DNA of 64,000 nucleotides from Rhodococcus oxybenzonivorans (GTDB taxonomy: Bacteria; Actinomycetota; Actinomycetes; Mycobacteriales; Mycobacteriaceae): contig NZ_CP021357.1 in NCBI RefSeq assembly GCF_003130705.1, positions 55,046 through 119,045 of the forward strand, read 5' to 3'. The first letter of the stretch is position 1. The number at the start of each line of letters is the position of its first letter. Under the pieces are notes generated by a model that saw only the letters and a list, made by a program, of their open reading frames with translations, did not search any database and was not told where the DNA came from. Below are positions 6,828 to 55,468 of the stretch, one piece after another. Position numbers and translations under genes: made by a program.

Positions 6828-7007
6828 TTGACGACCGTGATCCGCCACCCTCGTCGAGCGGGGTGGGGCCCGGAGGGTGAAGCGATTCGGCACCACATGC
6901 TACGCACCTACACCTGGCCGATCCCCGATCGACATGAGGGGAAATGGGGCGACACATCGCTCCCCATCCCGGGCGGCGGGTTGCCAATCGCGTCGGGGCG
7001 CAGATGA
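6828..7007 (+). CDS. Small hypothetical protein
   Basis: A 59-residue frame starts at TTG 6828 behind AAAGGA and ends by overlapping the ATG of the next gene (ATGA at 7004-7007). The spacing and overlap suggest it is translated as part of the operon. The sequence (TTVIRHPRRAGWGPEGEAIR, later MLRTYTWPIPDRHEGKWGD) matches no family I recognise and could be the remains of a larger protein. An in-frame ATG at 6777 would lengthen it by 17 residues but lacks a clear ribosome site. Confidence 0.4.
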   Translation: MTTVIRHPRRAGWGPEGEAIRHHMLRTYTWPIPDRHEGKWGDTSLPIPGGGLPIASGRR

Positions 7008-7729
7008 AGCAGACACCGGTGGTGTACTTGGGGGCGACCGAATTCCTCGACATCGATCACGAGTCCGTCCGGGCGTTCACCGCCGCCGCGATTGGCGATG
7101 CGAGCACCGACCGGGACAAGGCGAAGCGCCTCTTCGCCGCCGTCCGCGACCAGATCTGGTACGACCCCTACACAGTCTCAGAGGATCCCGCCCACTATCG
7201 AGCGAGTTTTGTCCTCGAGGCCGGGCGAGCCTATTGCGTCCCGAAGGCGGTGCTCTTGACCGCGGTGTGCCGCGCGGCACGGATTCCGGCGCTGCTGGGC
7301 TTCGCTGACGTCCGCAATCACCTGCAGACCGAAACGTTGCGAGTGCTCATGGGCGGCACGGACCTGTTCGTCTATCACGGCTACAGCCATCTCTACATCG
7401 ACGGCCGGTGGTTGAAGGCGACGCCTGCGTTCAACACCGAATTGTGTGCGCGTTTCGGTGTACCGCCGGTGGATTTCGACGGCGATCGCGACGCCCTCCT
7501 GCACGCCTTCACCGCCGACGGAGCCCAGCATATGGAGTACGTCCGCCAGCGCGGCGTCTTCGACGACCTGCCTTTGAACGCGATCCTGACCGAGCTTCGG
7601 CATACCTATGGACCGCTGACGCTTAAGGGCACTCACGGGACCGCTGACGCTTTCACCGACACACCCACCAACCACACCCAGCCCGACAGGATCTCCCGCG
7701 GGCCCCGCTCATCCCTGGAGACCCGATGA
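7004..7729 (+). CDS. Transglutaminase-like cysteine protease-fold protein
   Basis: This 241-residue protein has the bacterial transglutaminase core: the catalytic Cys78 in GRAYCVPKAVLLTAVCRAAR, the His129 in YHGYSHLYIDG, and the following strand WLKATPAFN. Where eukaryotic enzymes have a catalytic Asp the local motif is Thr-Pro, as in many bacterial relatives described as acting on small substrates. The family makes or breaks amide bonds, but the substrate here is unknown. It overlaps the preceding small ORF by four bases and the broken aldehyde dehydrogenase start by four bases, so it belongs to the hydroxylase operon. Confidence 0.78.
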   Translation: MKQTPVVYLGATEFLDIDHESVRAFTAAAIGDASTDRDKAKRLFAAVRDQIWYDPYTVSEDPAHYRASFVLEAGRAYCVPKAVLLTAVCRAARIPALLGFADVRNHLQTETLRVLMGGTDLFVYHGYSHLYIDGRWLKATPAFNTELCARFGVPPVDFDGDRDALLHAFTADGAQHMEYVRQRGVFDDLPLNAILTELRHTYGPLTLKGTHGTADAFTDTPTNHTQPDRISRGPRSSLETR

Positions 7730-19231: not shown

Positions 19232-19371
19232 TACCGAAGTTGCGGCGAATGATCCGCGCATCGTTTCGCCGCCCGGCCGCGTGTCGGACCTGATGCGATC
19301 ACCTGGTGACGTACCGTGCATTCCGTCCGAAGTAGCCCACACGAGTGGGTGAAGCAAACGGAAAGGGTCCC

Positions 19372-20085
19372 ATGACCATTCATGTCCTTCTCAATCAGAA
19401 GGGCGGCGTCGGAAAGAGTACCGTCGCCGTCAATCTCGCCGCCGTCACCGCGGACGTTCTGAACCAGGACGACGATCCCGACGCCACCTCCCCGGTTGCC
19501 GCGGTCTCCGTGGACCCGCAGGGCTCGGCGATCTGGTGGGCCGACCGCCTCGATAACCTGCCCTTTCACGTCGTGCAGGCTCACGACGACCTCAACGGGC
19601 TCCGTCAGTTGGGTCAGCTGCCTGGCATTCGCCACGTGTACGTCGACACCCCCGGTTGGATCGACCTCAATGCCGCCGATGACACAAGCGACCCGCTCGG
19701 TCGCGGACCGGCCGCCGATGCATTGCGGACGGTTCTCGAGGTTGCCGATCACGTTATCGTGCCGATGGAAACCGAACCGCTCTCGTTCGACCCGACCGCC
19801 CGCACCATCCGAAAAATCCTGGAACCCCGCGGCATTCCGTACACGGTCGTGATCAACAACTGGGATCCCCGCGACGGCAAGCTCGATCTCGAGGAAACCA
19901 AGGATTTCGTTCGTGCGAACAAGTGGCCGCTCGCGAAAACCGTGATCCGGCACTACAAATTGCATGCCCGGGCGAGCGCCGACGGCCTGGTGGTCACCGA
20001 ATACCCCGCGAACCGGGTGGCGTTGCAGGCCCGGGAGGACTTCTACCGGTTGGCTTTGGAGTTGCGGATCGACGGTGGTCGGTGA
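19372..20085 (+). CDS. parA: ParA-family partition ATPase
   Basis: This 237-residue ATPase has the deviant Walker A LNQKGGVGKSTVAVNLA, the Walker A' DPQGS (VSVDPQGSAIWWAD) and Walker B VYVDTPGWIDL. It lacks an N-terminal DNA-binding domain, so autoregulation would fall to the ParB partner. It should move and position plasmid copies over the nucleoid. The start ATG 19372 lies behind GGAAAGGG. Its stop overlaps the parB start (TGATG), so the two proteins are coupled. Confidence 0.92.
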   Translation: MTIHVLLNQKGGVGKSTVAVNLAAVTADVLNQDDDPDATSPVAAVSVDPQGSAIWWADRLDNLPFHVVQAHDDLNGLRQLGQLPGIRHVYVDTPGWIDLNAADDTSDPLGRGPAADALRTVLEVADHVIVPMETEPLSFDPTARTIRKILEPRGIPYTVVINNWDPRDGKLDLEETKDFVRANKWPLAKTVIRHYKLHARASADGLVVTEYPANRVALQAREDFYRLALELRIDGGR

Positions 20086-20948
20086 TGGCACGCGGTACCC
20101 GCACCAACCTGGCGACCCTCGCCGGCGTCGTTGGCGAGAACTCCCCCGTCGACCGTCCCGTCGCCGGCGGGACACCGACCAACGTGCCACTGAGTGAGCT
20201 GGCCCCGAATCCGCGTAATCCGCGTGACGACCTCGGAGATCTCAGCGATCTAGTCTCGATTACCGGCACTCAACTCCAACCCGCGCTGGTGGTCACTCGG
20301 GACGCGTATCTGCGGTTGTATCCGGAAGACGACACTAAGATCGGGCTGGCCCGATGGGTGGTGATCAACGGATGCCGGCGCCTGGCCGCCGCCGCAAACT
20401 TCGGCCGCCCCAACCTCGACATCATCGTCAAGGACGAAGTCGCCAAGGACCGGGAGACCCTACTCGCCGCGGCGGTCATCGAGAACGTCGGCCGCCGCGA
20501 CTTCGACGTCATCGAAGAGGCCAAGGCCGTCGAACTCCTGATCAACGAGTGCGGAACCGTCGACAAGGCGGCACTCAAGCTCAATAAGTCCAAAGCCTGG
20601 ATCTCGTACCGCCGATCCCTGCTCAAGCTCGCCCCCGAGCTGCAAACCGCACTCCGCAAAGGCGAACTCGCCGTCCGCACCGCCCGCTCACTCGCACAGG
20701 TCCCGCCCGAGGCCCAAGTCCAGGCCTGGGCCGCCGAACAACAGCGGGAACACACGAAGCCCGATTCGGAACCCACACCTGACTCCGAAACCCGTTTGCC
20801 GGCACGCACCCCCGTCACCGCAGCGAAGGTCACACGCACCTTCCGCCGCTTGGAGGCCGACCCGACCACGCTCGCCGAGGCCCTGGTCGATTACCTCGAC
20901 GCCGACGGACTGCAAACTCTGATCCAGGCACTCACCGATCGACACTGA
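20085..20948 (+). CDS. parB: ParB-family partition protein
   Basis: This 287-residue protein has a ParB/Sulfiredoxin-type N-domain (VPLSELAPNPRNPRDDLGDL, later WVVINGCRRLAAA in place of the usual GERR box) and a helix-turn-helix region (AALKLNKSKAWISYRRSLLK). It binds the centromere and stimulates ParA. The variant box and the 'IEEAKAVELL' helix are typical of plasmid ParB-like proteins in actinobacteria. Several CACCGCGGTG palindromes surround the operon and may be its binding sites. A broken copy of its 3' half lies at 11056-11615. Confidence 0.9.
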   Translation: MARGTRTNLATLAGVVGENSPVDRPVAGGTPTNVPLSELAPNPRNPRDDLGDLSDLVSITGTQLQPALVVTRDAYLRLYPEDDTKIGLARWVVINGCRRLAAAANFGRPNLDIIVKDEVAKDRETLLAAAVIENVGRRDFDVIEEAKAVELLINECGTVDKAALKLNKSKAWISYRRSLLKLAPELQTALRKGELAVRTARSLAQVPPEAQVQAWAAEQQREHTKPDSEPTPDSETRLPARTPVTAAKVTRTFRRLEADPTTLAEALVDYLDADGLQTLIQALTDRH

Positions 20949-26891: not shown

Positions 26892-27204
26892 TGTCCCCTC
26901 CCCATTTCTCGGGACAGCTTATCGGGGCGCAGACAGAAGGTTCACGGTCCCATGTTGCTTCCCGTTGACCCGCCGGCCCCACGATCCGATCAGGCACGCC
27001 TCCGTGCTGGGTTCGTTGCGCTGCACGGGGAGCGCAACGGCGACTTCCGTGCGGCCGCAACGTGTGGATGTTGCACCGCAACGTCGGACTCGGTGGACGT
27101 TGTTGCCGCAACGGGATTGTCGAGGGGTTGTCCTCGGACCGGTTGTAGGCGGTCAGGTCGAAAAGCGCGAACTGGTCGTCACTCCCCCAGCCTGGGGTCG
27201 GACA
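26892..27204. other. Intergenic region rich in GCAACG/CGTTGC words
   Basis: No gene is supported in these 313 bp. Between about 27010 and 27115 the hexamer GCAACG or its complement occurs five times, with further TTGC-rich words between them. It is the left edge of the hexamer cluster described under findings. Confidence 0.6.
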
Positions 27205-28401
27205 TCACCGGGCACCGACCAGTGCGTACTGCTGGCCTGTCGTTGCTGCATTGCGACTGTCGGTTGCGTCGTCGACCTCGGGCAGCGGCGGGGTGCGGAA
27301 CCCCGCCTGTACGGCTCGTTGCGCAACCTTGTCGTATCGGCGCATTGCGGTGGAGGCCGCCTTGGCGTGGGTGATCGTTGCGATTTCCGCGTAGCTGAGA
27401 TTCTCGGTGATCCGGAGGCGAGCGGTTTCCTTGACTGTGGGGTCGAAGTCGTCGCAGGCGTCGATGAAGTCCAGGAGGTTCTCGATGGTCTGTTCCCCGT
27501 CGGGCAACACGTTGACCTCCGGTGACGCCTCGGGGGGCGCATTGCGGGCAACCGACGGCTCCCCCAGGTCTGCAACGGCTGCAACGCTGGGTGCATCCGC
27601 AACGAGCGGTTCGGCAACCACCGCAACAGTGGCTGGCGTGGCGTCCACCTGGTCCTCGATCGGCACCGACGCGTCGACAGCTGCGGTACCTTGCGGTGCC
27701 GGATCGCCGGCCTCGGCAACCGGCCCTGTGGCAACGTCGGATGCCGACGCAACGTCGGGTGCAACAGGGTTGGCCTGAGAGCGACGGAACGCTTCCCATG
27801 TTTGGCGGTTCATCTCGATACCTTGCTCCTCGAGCTCGTTGCCGAGTTCGTTGCGCGCCACCTCAGCCTTGACGTTTGCAGCCTGCATGAGGGCGTTGTA
27901 CTCGGTGTAGGCGGTCCCGATGGACTTGATGAGAATGCCCACGCCGTGCGTAAAGGCCAGAACCAGCAGCGGCGGAATGATCGCCAGGAGGGCGGCGCCG
28001 GTCGGTGTGAGGGGGGTGTAGCCCAGGTCGATACCGGCGGCGAGTTTCCGTGCAGCGTCTTCACCGGCCCGGTGCGCGTGGTAGGCATTGCCGTAAACGC
28101 TGATGAGGACCACGCTGACAGCCAGCGCCAGAAAAAACTTCTTCCCCGCTGCACTTCCGTTGATCTTGCTCAGCGCAACGGTCGCGATCGTTGCGCCGAG
28201 GATTGCGCCGTCGACGATCGAGGGAAAGATCCAGGTGAGGTAGTGCGGGACACCGGCCTGCAATGCGAGGTCGCGTTGCACCGCAAAGGACAACACGAAT
28301 GCACCAGAGGTGATACCCACCGCAATGGCGATCGCAACGGCGAGGGCTGCGATCAGGGAGCGGAGCTGGATTCGTGCTGCTCGGAGATTAAGGTCAATCA
28401 T
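27205..28401 (-). CDS. DUF2637 membrane protein of actinobacterial plasmids
   Basis: This 398-residue product starts MIDLNLRAARIQLRSLIAAL at ATG 28401. Four transmembrane segments fill residues 10-170 (AVAIAVGITSGAFVLSFAV, LTWIFPSIVDGAILGATIA, FFLALAVSVVLISVYGNAYH, AALLAIIPPLLVLAFTHGV), the DUF2637 arrangement. A long acidic, Ala/Val/Pro-rich middle follows, and a C-terminal helix-turn-helix-like stretch (ENLSYAEIATITHAKAASTA). DUF2637 genes are common on actinobacterial plasmids, often beside regulators; their role is unknown. Its sequence is saturated with GCAACG/CGTTGC, chosen even where other Ala, Thr and Val codons would be usual. Confidence 0.8.
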   Translation of the reverse strand: MIDLNLRAARIQLRSLIAALAVAIAIAVGITSGAFVLSFAVQRDLALQAGVPHYLTWIFPSIVDGAILGATIATVALSKINGSAAGKKFFLALAVSVVLISVYGNAYHAHRAGEDAARKLAAGIDLGYTPLTPTGAALLAIIPPLLVLAFTHGVGILIKSIGTAYTEYNALMQAANVKAEVARNELGNELEEQGIEMNRQTWEAFRRSQANPVAPDVASASDVATGPVAEAGDPAPQGTAAVDASVPIEDQVDATPATVAVVAEPLVADAPSVAAVADLGEPSVARNAPPEASPEVNVLPDGEQTIENLLDFIDACDDFDPTVKETARLRITENLSYAEIATITHAKAASTAMRRYDKVAQRAVQAGFRTPPLPEVDDATDSRNAATTGQQYALVGAR

Positions 28402-28608
28402 GATCGGGTTTTCCTTCCACGGTGTCCCGGTCGACGAGGCCCCTGCCGACCCACTCGGCAGGGGTCTCTCTTCGTTGCGGCCATTCGCTGACCGCGCTCG
28501 CGTGGCGCTGCTAAGCAATTCTTGCTGCTGGTAGGACCCATATCTTCTCGGATGCGCAATGCACCCTTTGCTCATATGGGCTATTTCAACCCATATGGGA
28601 CGTAGGGG
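28402..28608. promoter_or_regulatory. Promoter region of DUF2637 gene with CATATGGG palindromes
   Basis: The stretch holds CTCATATGGG (28571-28580) and the perfect palindrome CCCATATGGG (28590-28599). The latter recurs once more just upstream of the ParA start (29848-29857). They are probable operator sites for the ribbon-helix-helix protein encoded next to them. Confidence 0.55.
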
Positions 28609-29043
28609 CTATATGGCAATTTCGTCTGCGGGCGCGGGGAAGGGTTCGCCGTTGTTGTACTGATTTTCGAGTCTGGCGCAAAGCTGGTCGATCGCGGTGC
28701 GGATGAATACCTGCTGACTCTTGATCCCGGTACGGGGGCGAGTGTGCTCGAGGGCTGCAACCATGCGGTCCTTCAACTCTTCCTCCAGCGACAGCAGAAT
28801 GTCGGTGGTCTGAGCCTTCCGCTTCTTCTCCGCTGGCTGTCTCGCGGGTGCCGACGCCTTGCGCTGTTGCGGCGTTGCGGTCGGCGTTGCAGACGGGGCG
28901 GTCGTTGCGGGCGCAACCGGCGACGTTGCGGCCGGCTCGGGCGCAACAGGCTCTGGCATTGCGGTCGTCTTCGCGGCGGCTTGCTTGAAAGTATTGCGTG
29001 CGCTGCGAGGTGCGGGCGGGGCAGGTTTGGGAATTGCGCTCAT
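28609..29043 (-). CDS. Ribbon-helix-helix partition partner of the second ParA (ParB-like)
   Basis: This 144-residue protein has a long Pro/Ala-rich disordered N-terminal arm (residues 1-75). A C-terminal domain follows (TDILLSLEEELKDRMVAALE, SQQVFIRTAIDQLCARL) that has the beta-strand/helix/helix pattern of ribbon-helix-helix DNA binders. Its ATG overlaps the ParA stop (TGATGA), as in type Ib partition operons where the second gene encodes a small centromere-binding protein. The arm probably contacts ParA. Ala-Thr pairs in the arm are encoded by GCA ACG and Val-Ala by GTT GCG, feeding the hexamer cluster. Confidence 0.65.
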   Translation of the reverse strand: MSAIPKPAPPAPRSARNTFKQAAAKTTAMPEPVAPEPAATSPVAPATTAPSATPTATPQQRKASAPARQPAEKKRKAQTTDILLSLEEELKDRMVAALEHTRPRTGIKSQQVFIRTAIDQLCARLENQYNNGEPFPAPADEIAI

Positions 29044-29831
29044 CAGACGGCCACCTTCTCCAGGATTTCGATGAAGTTCTTATGCAGGTTGCGGGACCAC
29101 GCGGGCTGGCTGGGGTGCTCGTCGAACCCCATTCCTACGTTGGTCAATTTCGATATGTCTGCCTTCTGCGGGATCGGGTCGCCGAGGAGCGCAATCTTGT
29201 CCTCAGCCGCGTAGTTCTTTAGATAGCTGACGATCTCGGCGTGATCGTTACGACGTCCGTCGATCTTGTTGATGACGATCCCGGCTATCGGGAGGACTTT
29301 GTCCATGTACTCGGCCAGGTCTTCGAGGGCCTCGCGAATCGAATCAAGCCCGTCGACGGCATCCGATTCCGGCTGAACGACGATCAGGACGTTATCCGCG
29401 GCGTACAGGGCGCTCCGAGAGACAAGGTCGATCGCGGGACGGCAGTCGATCAGAATGTGCTCGTACTCGCCCGAGACTGGCTTGAGAGCGCGAGCGAACG
29501 ACATCTCTCCCCCAGGCTTCGTGCCGAGCTGATCTGAGACAGCCTGCAATTCGGCGAACCCGGATGGCAGGACATGAATCGCTTCACGCCGCGCCACGAC
29601 GATCGCATCGCGGGCCGGTAGATCCGTCTGACGGTCGAGTACGTCAGCTAGCGAGTGTGGTGCGGGCTCGGATGTCGTGTAACCGGTGAGGTGCTTGGTT
29701 GAGTTGCCCTGCATGTCCGCGTCGACTAGCAGAACTGTGCGGCCTATCGCGGCGGCGGCGTGCGAGAGCCCATTGGCCACCGTTGTCTTTCCCACGCCGC
29801 CCTTGAGGTTCGCGATCGCAGTGATCGTCAT
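29043..29831 (-). CDS. ParA-family ATPase of the second partition system
   Basis: This 262-residue protein, from ATG 29831, has the deviant Walker A ANLKGGVGKTTVANGLSH at residues 7-24, the A' motif LLVDADMQGNSTK, and Walker B HILIDCRPAIDL. It is compact and has no N-terminal helix-turn-helix, as in type Ib ParA proteins. It is only distantly similar to the ParA at 19372. It is coupled to the ribbon-helix-helix gene downstream. The promoter region holds a CCCATATGGG palindrome 16 bases before the start. Confidence 0.9.
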   Translation of the reverse strand: MTITAIANLKGGVGKTTVANGLSHAAAAIGRTVLLVDADMQGNSTKHLTGYTTSEPAPHSLADVLDRQTDLPARDAIVVARREAIHVLPSGFAELQAVSDQLGTKPGGEMSFARALKPVSGEYEHILIDCRPAIDLVSRSALYAADNVLIVVQPESDAVDGLDSIREALEDLAEYMDKVLPIAGIVINKIDGRRNDHAEIVSYLKNYAAEDKIALLGDPIPQKADISKLTNVGMGFDEHPSQPAWSRNLHKNFIEILEKVAV

Positions 29832-29846
29832 GCCCCTCCCTTCCAT

Positions 29847-29890
29847 TCCCATATGGGAGCTTATATAAGCTATTATTAGCTTATAGCATC
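29847..29890. promoter_or_regulatory. Operator-like palindromes upstream of the second parA
   Basis: TCCCATATGGGA (29847-29858) is a perfect 12-bp palindrome. It is followed by AGCTTATATAAGCT (29859-29872), a perfect 14-bp palindrome, and then further AGCT/AGCTTAT half-sites up to 29885. The stretch is unusually A+T-rich for this DNA. It is likely the autoregulated parA promoter and possibly part of an origin. Confidence 0.6.
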
Positions 29891-54700: not shown

Positions 54701-55468
54701 ATGGTTCAAGGTCGTCGCAGCAGCACGAAGTCACGCAGTTCGTCCTCGTCGTCACAGCAGTGGGACGAAGTCGGTAAAGCAGTCAAGGCCGGCGCGGACG
54801 AATTGCGTGCGTTGACCACCCACTCACAGCTCTACCAGTGGGCGAAGGAACACAAGTTCGCGACCGCGTCGATGTTCCCGAAGTTCAAGACCGAGCTGAA
54901 CAAGCGGCTCGACATCGATTACGACGAGCTGCGGTCGATCGCACAGCGTGAACGCTTCGCCCAGATCGAAGCAGCCGCCGTAGACGGTCGGTTGGTGGAA
55001 CTGTGGGCGGCCGGTGACGACGAAGTCTCCTCGTATGCGGTGTGCGGGCCGGACGGATTCGTGGCCTGGTACGGAGAGTTCTTCGAGGACGACAAGATCC
55101 GCAAGGAAGGCGATCAGAACTCGGCGGACCTCTCGGCCGCCGGCAAAGCGGTGTTCCTGGCAGGCAAGGTCCGCGAAGAACTCGAGGTCGACGCACTGAC
55201 CGTGCGGATTCACGTTCTCAACCATCACGTTCGCAGTGAGGACCTCATGCGGGCAGCTCTCGGCGCGGGAGTGGTGGTGGAGATCGACGTCGACGACGAC
55301 ACCACCGCGCTGGACTGGTGCCGCGAACCGGGATCGAAGTCCTGGCGGGAAACGAAACTCGAACGCCTCCTCGCCCGCGACACCGACACCGACACAGGGG
55401 AAGACACCGGTCAGGACGAGTCAGACACCATCGACGACACCGACGAAGACGGGGCAGGTGGTCAGTGA
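54701..55468 (+). CDS. Conjugation-operon protein of unknown function (255 aa)
   Basis: The start ATG 54701 follows AAGGAG. A Ser-rich basic N-terminus leads to a soluble domain (FKTELNKRLDIDYDELRSIA, YAVCGPDGFVAWYGEFFEDD) with strands LTVRIHVLNHHV and VVVEIDVDDDTTALD, and an acidic Asp/Thr repeat tail (DTDTDTGEDTGQ). No family is recognised. The acidic tail could help recruit it to the secretion channel. It overlaps the next start by one base (TGATG). Confidence 0.6.
   Translation: MVQGRRSSTKSRSSSSSSQQWDEVGKAVKAGADELRALTTHSQLYQWAKEHKFATASMFPKFKTELNKRLDIDYDELRSIAQRERFAQIEAAAVDGRLVELWAAGDDEVSSYAVCGPDGFVAWYGEFFEDDKIRKEGDQNSADLSAAGKAVFLAGKVREELEVDALTVRIHVLNHHVRSEDLMRAALGAGVVVEIDVDDDTTALDWCREPGSKSWRETKLERLLARDTDTDTGEDTGQDESDTIDDTDEDGAGGQ

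Follow-up and report, generated by a model that had tools for sequence, protein, structure and literature searches.

Why should a short DNA word crowd into and around the gene of a predicted membrane protein? The question is raised by a 64,000-nucleotide stretch (the window; positions 55,046 to 119,045 of contig NZ_CP021357.1) of C4, a 119,045-bp plasmid of Rhodococcus oxybenzonivorans (assembly GCF_003130705.1). An initial annotation, made from the letters of this DNA alone, had noticed about two dozen copies of GCAACG or its complement CGTTGC within about 2 kb, next to genes for a ParA ATPase and a ribbon-helix-helix protein, and had suggested that the latter binds them as a dispersed centromere. 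We found that the cluster is a genuine array, that its DNA word is under selection and that, across plasmids, it follows the helix-turn-helix of the protein in whose gene it mostly lies, a member of the DUF2637 family, and not the ribbon-helix-helix protein.

The array, its word and selection on the DNA

Counting confirmed the cluster: 24 copies of GCAACG/CGTTGC lie in 26990–28930, out of 84 in the window and 127 on C4, where the maximum elsewhere is 7 per 2 kb. The genome as a whole has 6934 copies in 8.01 Mb, or 0.87 per kb. Over the replicon and host genome, the cluster stands out in same-strand GCAACG triples (gaps ≤30) as well: 5 of the 11 genome-wide are at this cluster, 3 lie within or beside DUF2637 sequences of contig C2 and 3 are on C1, the largest contig, one of these being a short tandem repeat (the rest of C1 was covered by the triple pattern only). 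Intervals of 1.5 kb with at least 8 hexamers were absent from 240 of the 299 kb of C3 and from 160 kb sampled from C2; at 683000–701000 of C2, two stretches reach 8, one at a DUF2637 gene and one at a decayed copy. On plasmid pRHL3 (G005:C4), analysed whole, such intervals occur only at 252401–256201 and once at 256501–258001, in the DUF2637–parA region. The decayed copy on C2 (approximately 693700–696400, in locus L062) is a second DUF2637 copy about 4.7 kb from the intact one; it is broken by an internal stop and retains a residual site cluster.

As initially described, the copies span an intergenic stretch (5), the DUF2637 gene (14) and the ribbon-helix-helix gene (4). The DUF2637 gene (27205–28401, minus strand, 398 amino acids) exceeds the mean of 4.94 obtained by synonymous-codon shuffling, which retains the protein and its codon counts (0/2000 shuffles reach 14), and the mean of 2.8 obtained when codons are redrawn from seven other genes of the window (0/5000). 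The unusual GCA and GTT codons remarked on earlier are borne out: GTT makes up 15/35 of GTT+GTC+GTG codons in the DUF2637 gene versus 21/173 in the seven other genes, and GCA 23/77 of alanine codons versus 44/296. In the 3′ intergenic stretch (26892–27204), 5 hexamers compare with a mean of 0.35 in dinucleotide shuffles (0/2000 reach 5); they fall within 100 bp (27014–27113) on the 3′ side of DUF2637, where the array is non-coding. The gap at 28402–28608 holds 1 versus 0.1 expected (194/2000), and the ribbon-helix-helix gene is weaker when taken alone (4 versus 1.40, 54/2000). Because the synonymous-codon null never reaches the observed count in the DUF2637 gene, selection acts on the DNA word as such, as had been supposed. 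The array also recurs in diverged relatives (below).

The top enriched 7-mer of the region is CGCAACG (17 versus 0.75 expected). To refine the word, we scored every single-base variant of GCAACG against flanking DNA, pooling 15 loci of type A (defined below). Changes in the GCAA core drop enrichment to 0.5–1.5-fold; C or T is tolerated as the fifth base (7.1- and 6.9-fold) and G or A as the sixth (7.1- and 6.0-fold). The base in front of the hexamer is preferably C or T (9.5- and 13.2-fold; G reaches 4.2 and A 2.4). The word is therefore YGCAAYR, broader than GCAACG and non-palindromic. In the window it forms an array of 34 sites (16 on the plus and 18 on the minus strand) at 27014–28998, the stretch that holds the 24 hexamers, and elsewhere reaches at most 7 per 2 kb; since sites extend to 28998, the array runs slightly past the end first assigned to it (28930). 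Same-strand spacings peak at 12, 18, 27, 30 and 42, which are codon multiples, and a plus–minus spacing of 14 is common, in a tally that related loci entered repeatedly. As these spacings established no fixed helical phase or dimer site, palindromic or phased sites were rejected and a monomer site is preferred.

Over 22 type-A loci, the density of YGCAAYR per kb is 12.0 in the last 500 bp before the DUF2637 gene, 12.9, 16.4 and 13.7 in its successive thirds, 9.5 in the first 500 bp after it and 1.1–1.3 farther downstream; at greater distances upstream it is 3.9, 2.1, 3.0 and 1.3. The array, about 2.2 kb long, thus has the DUF2637 gene at its centre and reaches about 0.5 kb beyond it on either side. 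Single loci differ: L009, L150 and L165 have no sites downstream. A second dense patch of YGCAAYR was seen upstream of parA in L024 and L032 (10–11 sites per 500-bp bin, 1–2 kb before DUF2637).

DUF2637 architecture and association with the array

The protein belongs to DUF2637 by its match to PF10935 (E = 1.5e-10; 41.6 bits, family cut-off 22.8), and its gene contains 18 YGCAAYR. Hydropathy and an AlphaFold model predict a membrane domain at residues 1–165 (27907–28401, minus strand), with hydropathy peaks near residues 19–37, 58–76, 84–107 and 140–158; a weaker peak at residues 259–277 lies inside a disordered, Pro/Ala/Val-rich linker (residues 219–295; 27517–27747, minus strand; pLDDT under 50), whose composition is partly that of translated sites (Val-Ala, Ala-Thr). 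The C-terminal helix-turn-helix (residues 300–369; 27295–27504, minus strand), here called the head, carries AASTAMRRYDKVAQ in its last helix. In the model, hydrophobic helices and the disordered linker are followed by a domain that appears to resemble sigma region 4 or KorA, and the VIA fold list for residues 300–369 contains sigma-4 and KorA rows, at Z just above 8, which may reflect a common arrangement; the rows for the membrane helices were mixed and were left out of interpretation. Foldseek returned nothing for the model at E ≤ 0.001, and a sequence search against solved structures gave no match. Sites are in excess both in the membrane part (6 YGCAAYR versus 0.8 expected, 0/500) and in the linker and head (12 versus 4.4, 0/500).

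Matches to DUF2637 came from 114 plasmid records (tblastn), 103 of them of Rhodococcus plasmids, and the ribbon-helix-helix protein was found in 35. For association tests we used 96 DUF2637 loci, 82 after removal of 95% copies. Heads with the pattern [ASPT]STA[ML]RR[YF] were called type A, arrays were called at ≥12 YGCAAYR and ≥4-fold, and ribbon-helix-helix relatives by tblastn at 1e-6. Arrays are present in 21/22 type-A loci versus 0/60 others (Fisher 1.2e-18). Against the ribbon-helix-helix protein the association is weaker but real (11/17 loci with it, 10/65 without; Fisher 1.3e-4). A further 40 loci were chosen by hand from PF10935 matches while their DNA was still unseen. They include 6 type-A loci, and every one is enriched: five by 24.9-, 9.1-, 6.7-, 4.5- and 3.7-fold, of which four pass the threshold, and the sixth, L145, which nearly duplicates an earlier locus, with 18 GCAACG versus 3.4. 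None of the 34 non-A loci passes. Also in favour of a link between head and array, L014 and L015, whose helix-turn-helix is altered and which lack the array, group with array carriers in a membrane-domain tree (SH-aLRT 86 and 88, below the star at 95). When every 6-mer was tested family-wise by synonymous shuffling (300 shuffles per gene), 28/35 type-A DUF2637 genes reached p ≤ 1/300, compared with 4/125 control genes from 32 loci; all four of these overlap or touch DUF2637 and are led by CGTTGC or GCGCAA.

Heads of other types go with other words. TGCGAC-type words lead or rank in the top four in the DUF2637 genes of L140, L141 and L151 (0/300), and L135 and L136 have a related TGCGAC-type excess, that of L136 falling below its own null; none of these five is beside a matched ParA. 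In two of the non-A genes that reach p ≤ 1/300, those of L080 and L092, the word is GTTGCA, which is related to the array word. Pooled scans of the E-type genes gave only a weak excess of YGCAAYR and mixed words. Judged from these sequences, the pattern suggests that head and word change together across DUF2637 types.

The array goes with four kinds of ParA that are at most 38% identical to each other (BLASTP), one pair being unmatched at E 1. With the pLPS8 kind of ParA, the array stays on DUF2637 and parA is 2.4–2.9 kb away. DUF2637 is often the third gene of Rhodococcus plasmid par operons, lying 163–973 bp downstream of a same-strand ParA match (some matches being weak) in 40/56 loci of the first set. 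Of a set of 16 loci, 9 have parA, the ribbon-helix-helix gene and DUF2637 in that order (with parA in two pieces in L006), 4 (L012–L015) have the latter two without an annotated adjacent parA and 3 (L017, L019 and L020) lack DUF2637; the cluster is present in 9/9 of those whose ribbon-helix-helix protein is at least about 65% identical to that of the window and in 0/7 others.

In the window, the dispersed array does stand beside a ParA/ribbon-helix-helix pair, as first reported. The ParA ATPase gene (29043–29831, minus strand, 262 amino acids, start set as in relatives; PF13614, E = 1.1e-35) is followed by the small gene of a ribbon-helix-helix, ParB-like protein (28609–29043, minus strand, 144 amino acids), the gene order of type Ib par loci. 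The match of the latter protein to PF18064 (CB_ParB_C) is weak and falls short of the cut-off (E = 0.003), and PF18064 is present in 40/41 of its homologs; AlphaFold modelled the protein with low confidence (pLDDT 62). There are 8 YGCAAYR in the 5′ half of its gene and none in the parA region (29044–29855).

The array and the ribbon-helix-helix protein come apart in both directions. Four plasmids among the diverged relatives in which the array recurs are decisive: on pRHL3, pROB02, pLPS8 and pCP105, the cluster lies on DUF2637 and a relative of the window's ribbon-helix-helix protein was undetected by tblastn at 1e-6; the small protein of pCP105 has PF18064 at E = 1.5e-4 and matches two members of the ribbon-helix-helix family at E 0.01–0.02. 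L014 and L015 (Rhodococcus plasmids), L016 (Gordonia), L018 (R. fascians) and L174 have the ribbon-helix-helix protein, another DUF2637 head and no array; L086 has it together with an E-type head and 10 YGCAAYR (3.4-fold). What accompanies the ribbon-helix-helix protein is instead the palindrome CCATATGG, found within 2.2 kb upstream of DUF2637 in 14/17 loci with the protein versus 0/65 without (L014, L015 and L018 have the protein without the palindrome). This double dissociation points to two site systems for two proteins. In the window, CCCATATGGG palindromes between the ribbon-helix-helix and DUF2637 genes (28590–28599) and upstream of parA (29848–29857) are putative sites of the ribbon-helix-helix protein, with a further CATATGGG at 28573 near the former; as a class, the CCCATATGGG palindromes are likely candidates for its operator or centromere.

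A proposed membrane tether and its alternatives

On balance, we favour the explanation that DUF2637, anchored in the membrane, reads the array of sites in its own gene and thereby tethers the plasmid to the membrane. The protein would sit in the membrane with its helix-turn-helix in the cytosol on the disordered linker, and each head would recognise one 7-bp word that lacks palindromic symmetry, rather as sigma region 4 recognises the −35 element. Many such heads on flexible linkers could catch the array and tie the plasmid to the membrane beside the parA–parB operon; because the sites blanket the DUF2637 gene and about 0.5 kb on either side, we propose one dense membrane-attachment patch. The ribbon-helix-helix protein would bind the separate CCCATATGGG palindromes and move the plasmid together with ParA, and the DUF2637 patch would act as a second, membrane-tethered centromere that keeps sister plasmids at the membrane.

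It is possible, although we would put this only tentatively, that such loci represent a new kind of segregation element, in which the gene of an integral membrane, DNA-binding protein is at once the centromere-like array to which its product binds, and that this cassette of anchor, sites and coding sequence swaps among unrelated parA–parB modules and changes its word with its helix-turn-helix (YGCAAYR with STAxRR heads; TGCGAC-type with others). The rep–parA determinants of Rhodococcus plasmids are described as plastic and exchangeable in the accessible part of one report (PMC5434932), and the mixing of modules seen here fits that description. Such an array is undescribed in the titles and abstract openings among the matches listed for Rhodococcus and membrane-anchored plasmid partition, a scope outside which most subscription journals lie, and DUF2637 is named in 1 paper of the literature searched. 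To our knowledge, the positioning of low-copy plasmids in actinobacterial cells has been little studied. If the proposal is true, these plasmids have a portable membrane tether that acts through sites in its own gene and is directly testable, and DUF2637 has a suggested role on Rhodococcus plasmids. The locus would also illustrate with unusual clarity how a function of the DNA moulds the codons and linker of a protein, and recoding such genes with synonymous codons could make plasmids unstable.

Several observations weigh against this proposal. The topology comes from hydropathy together with an AlphaFold model whose pTM is 0.38. The type-A pattern, which had first been noticed in early loci, was widened from [AS] to [ASPT] at its first position after arrays had been seen in L009 and L073, and one type-A locus, L149 (3.7-fold), is below the array threshold. 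In the all-6-mer test, p is no lower than 5/300, and as high as 39/300, in the remaining 7/35 type-A genes, and 10/61 non-A genes reach p ≤ 1/300, mostly through other words. Type and array are not all-or-none, because E-type DUF2637 genes (14 loci) keep a weak YGCAAYR excess (119 versus 56.8, 2.1-fold). Only 6 of the later 40 loci show a same-strand ParA match at a distance of up to 1 kb; given this and the gap of more than 2.4 kb in the pLPS8 kind, a role in par is not universal. The loci are also kin by descent: a membrane-domain tree (45 rows) needs 6 changes of array label, and since only 2 of these are forced by starred branches, independence is modest. Many membrane-domain sites are shared in position: in an opacus-like clade this holds for most of them, while L009 and L012 have 1 site each in that domain and the rest in the linker and head.

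The strongest rival is a role in transfer, in which the array would load the plasmid onto a membrane machine for conjugation or spreading, like the Spd proteins of Streptomyces. SpdB2 of pSVH1 is, according to the accessible part of one report, an integral membrane protein that binds DNA non-specifically and interacts with TraB (PMC4170104), and pLPS8 has a gene with an FtsK/SpoIIIE domain about 4.3 kb from DUF2637. The frequent position of DUF2637 just downstream of a same-strand ParA match argues against it, and the stretch examined of pNSL1 (L009) has no gene annotated as a transfer gene, although several are hypothetical. We regard this role as unlikely.

Less probable still are two further readings, which we rate alike. 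DUF2637 might be a membrane-bound repressor whose array silences or autoregulates its own gene; the sites do cover that gene, and the helix-turn-helix is KorA-like, but the roughly 34 sites, on either strand, extend across 2 kb without concentrating at a promoter. Alternatively, another host or plasmid factor might read YGCAAYR and merely use the locus. Binding of the word by DUF2637 is itself deduced from sequence, which leaves room for such a factor; the array, however, tracks the type of DUF2637 helix-turn-helix across four kinds of ParA, and C1 has only 3 of the 11 genome GCAACG triples.

We consider it very improbable that the neighbouring ribbon-helix-helix protein uses the array as its centromere, as the initial annotation proposed. 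The gene of that protein adjoins the array and contains part of it, the statistical association is real, and one array locus scored as lacking the protein (pCP105) may have a distant relative. Yet the array is present in 10/65 loci without a detected relative and absent from 6/17 with one, and the protein tracks CCATATGG instead; a type Ib centromere made of GCAACG sites was thus rejected, the array not tracking the small ribbon-helix-helix protein. Codon use or amino-acid composition alone can be dismissed as a source of the word: the linker is rich in Val-Ala and Ala-Thr, and about a third of the copies are expected (4.9/14), but the synonymous shuffles and the 125 control genes rule out a codon artefact, and the excess extends to the conserved membrane domain and to non-coding DNA.

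Known systems and further observations

Among the closest known systems is SpdA2 of the Streptomyces plasmid pIJ101, compared here through the accessible part of its description. SpdA2 binds sps sites inside its own gene, and losing either SpdA2 or sps lowers plasmid stability to a similar degree (PMC4170104). As in that system, the sites lie within the gene of the binder, which here is putatively DUF2637; there, however, they are 1 to 3 palindromes, as opposed to about 34 non-palindromic words, and neither a membrane domain nor a parA operon is mentioned for SpdA2 in that part (PMC4170104). Noc of Bacillus subtilis, as far as the accessible text goes, binds scattered specific sites and brings the DNA that carries them, NBS plasmids included, to the membrane (PMC4331003). 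It resembles what is proposed for DUF2637, with its predicted membrane domain, in being a site-specific DNA binder that brings DNA to the membrane, and differs in being peripheral, with an amphipathic helix and ParB boxes, and in that NBS are scattered round the chromosome (PMC4331003); DUF2637 has no ParB Pfam match, and the fold list for its residues 300–369 gives sigma-4 and KorA.

Type Ib ParAB systems of the pCXC100 kind share neighbouring parA and ribbon-helix-helix genes and candidate sites upstream of the operon (PMC5016525). In the examined portion of that report, the pCXC100 centromere consists of direct repeats only, in contrast to the palindromic candidate here, and no membrane protein is mentioned, the word membrane being absent from the text (PMC5016525); the YGCAAYR array is a separate system. 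StbA of R388 binds an array of short repeats and sets plasmid position and stability (PMC3098194, in part). The likeness lies in a short-repeat array for a plasmid protein (DUF2637 being the putative binder); the stbDRs differ in being direct 9-bp repeats, grouped in two sets of five around the promoter, and the accessible part mentions no membrane domain for StbA (PMC3098194).

The same plasmid has a second par locus at 19345–20948, where a ParA gene and a Spo0J/ParB-like gene were recognised by eye; a pair with these annotations lies in the WAY2 relative. No parS with up to 4 mismatches to TGTTTCACGTGAAACA, which we take to be the consensus, was found in the window. On the linear plasmid NZ_CP069243.1, two par–DUF2637 blocks (L006 and L007) have the same protein accessions in opposite orientation, which could reflect either an inverted duplication or a faulty assembly. 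In L093, about 500 bp of non-coding DNA between the DUF2637 gene and a divergent ParA (6901–7420) carry TGC/GCA triplets at a 12-bp period; the triplet count (75) is not above that of dinucleotide shuffles (68.6), and the autocorrelation has peaks at 12, 24 and 36, so that the stretch looks like a periodic centromere array.

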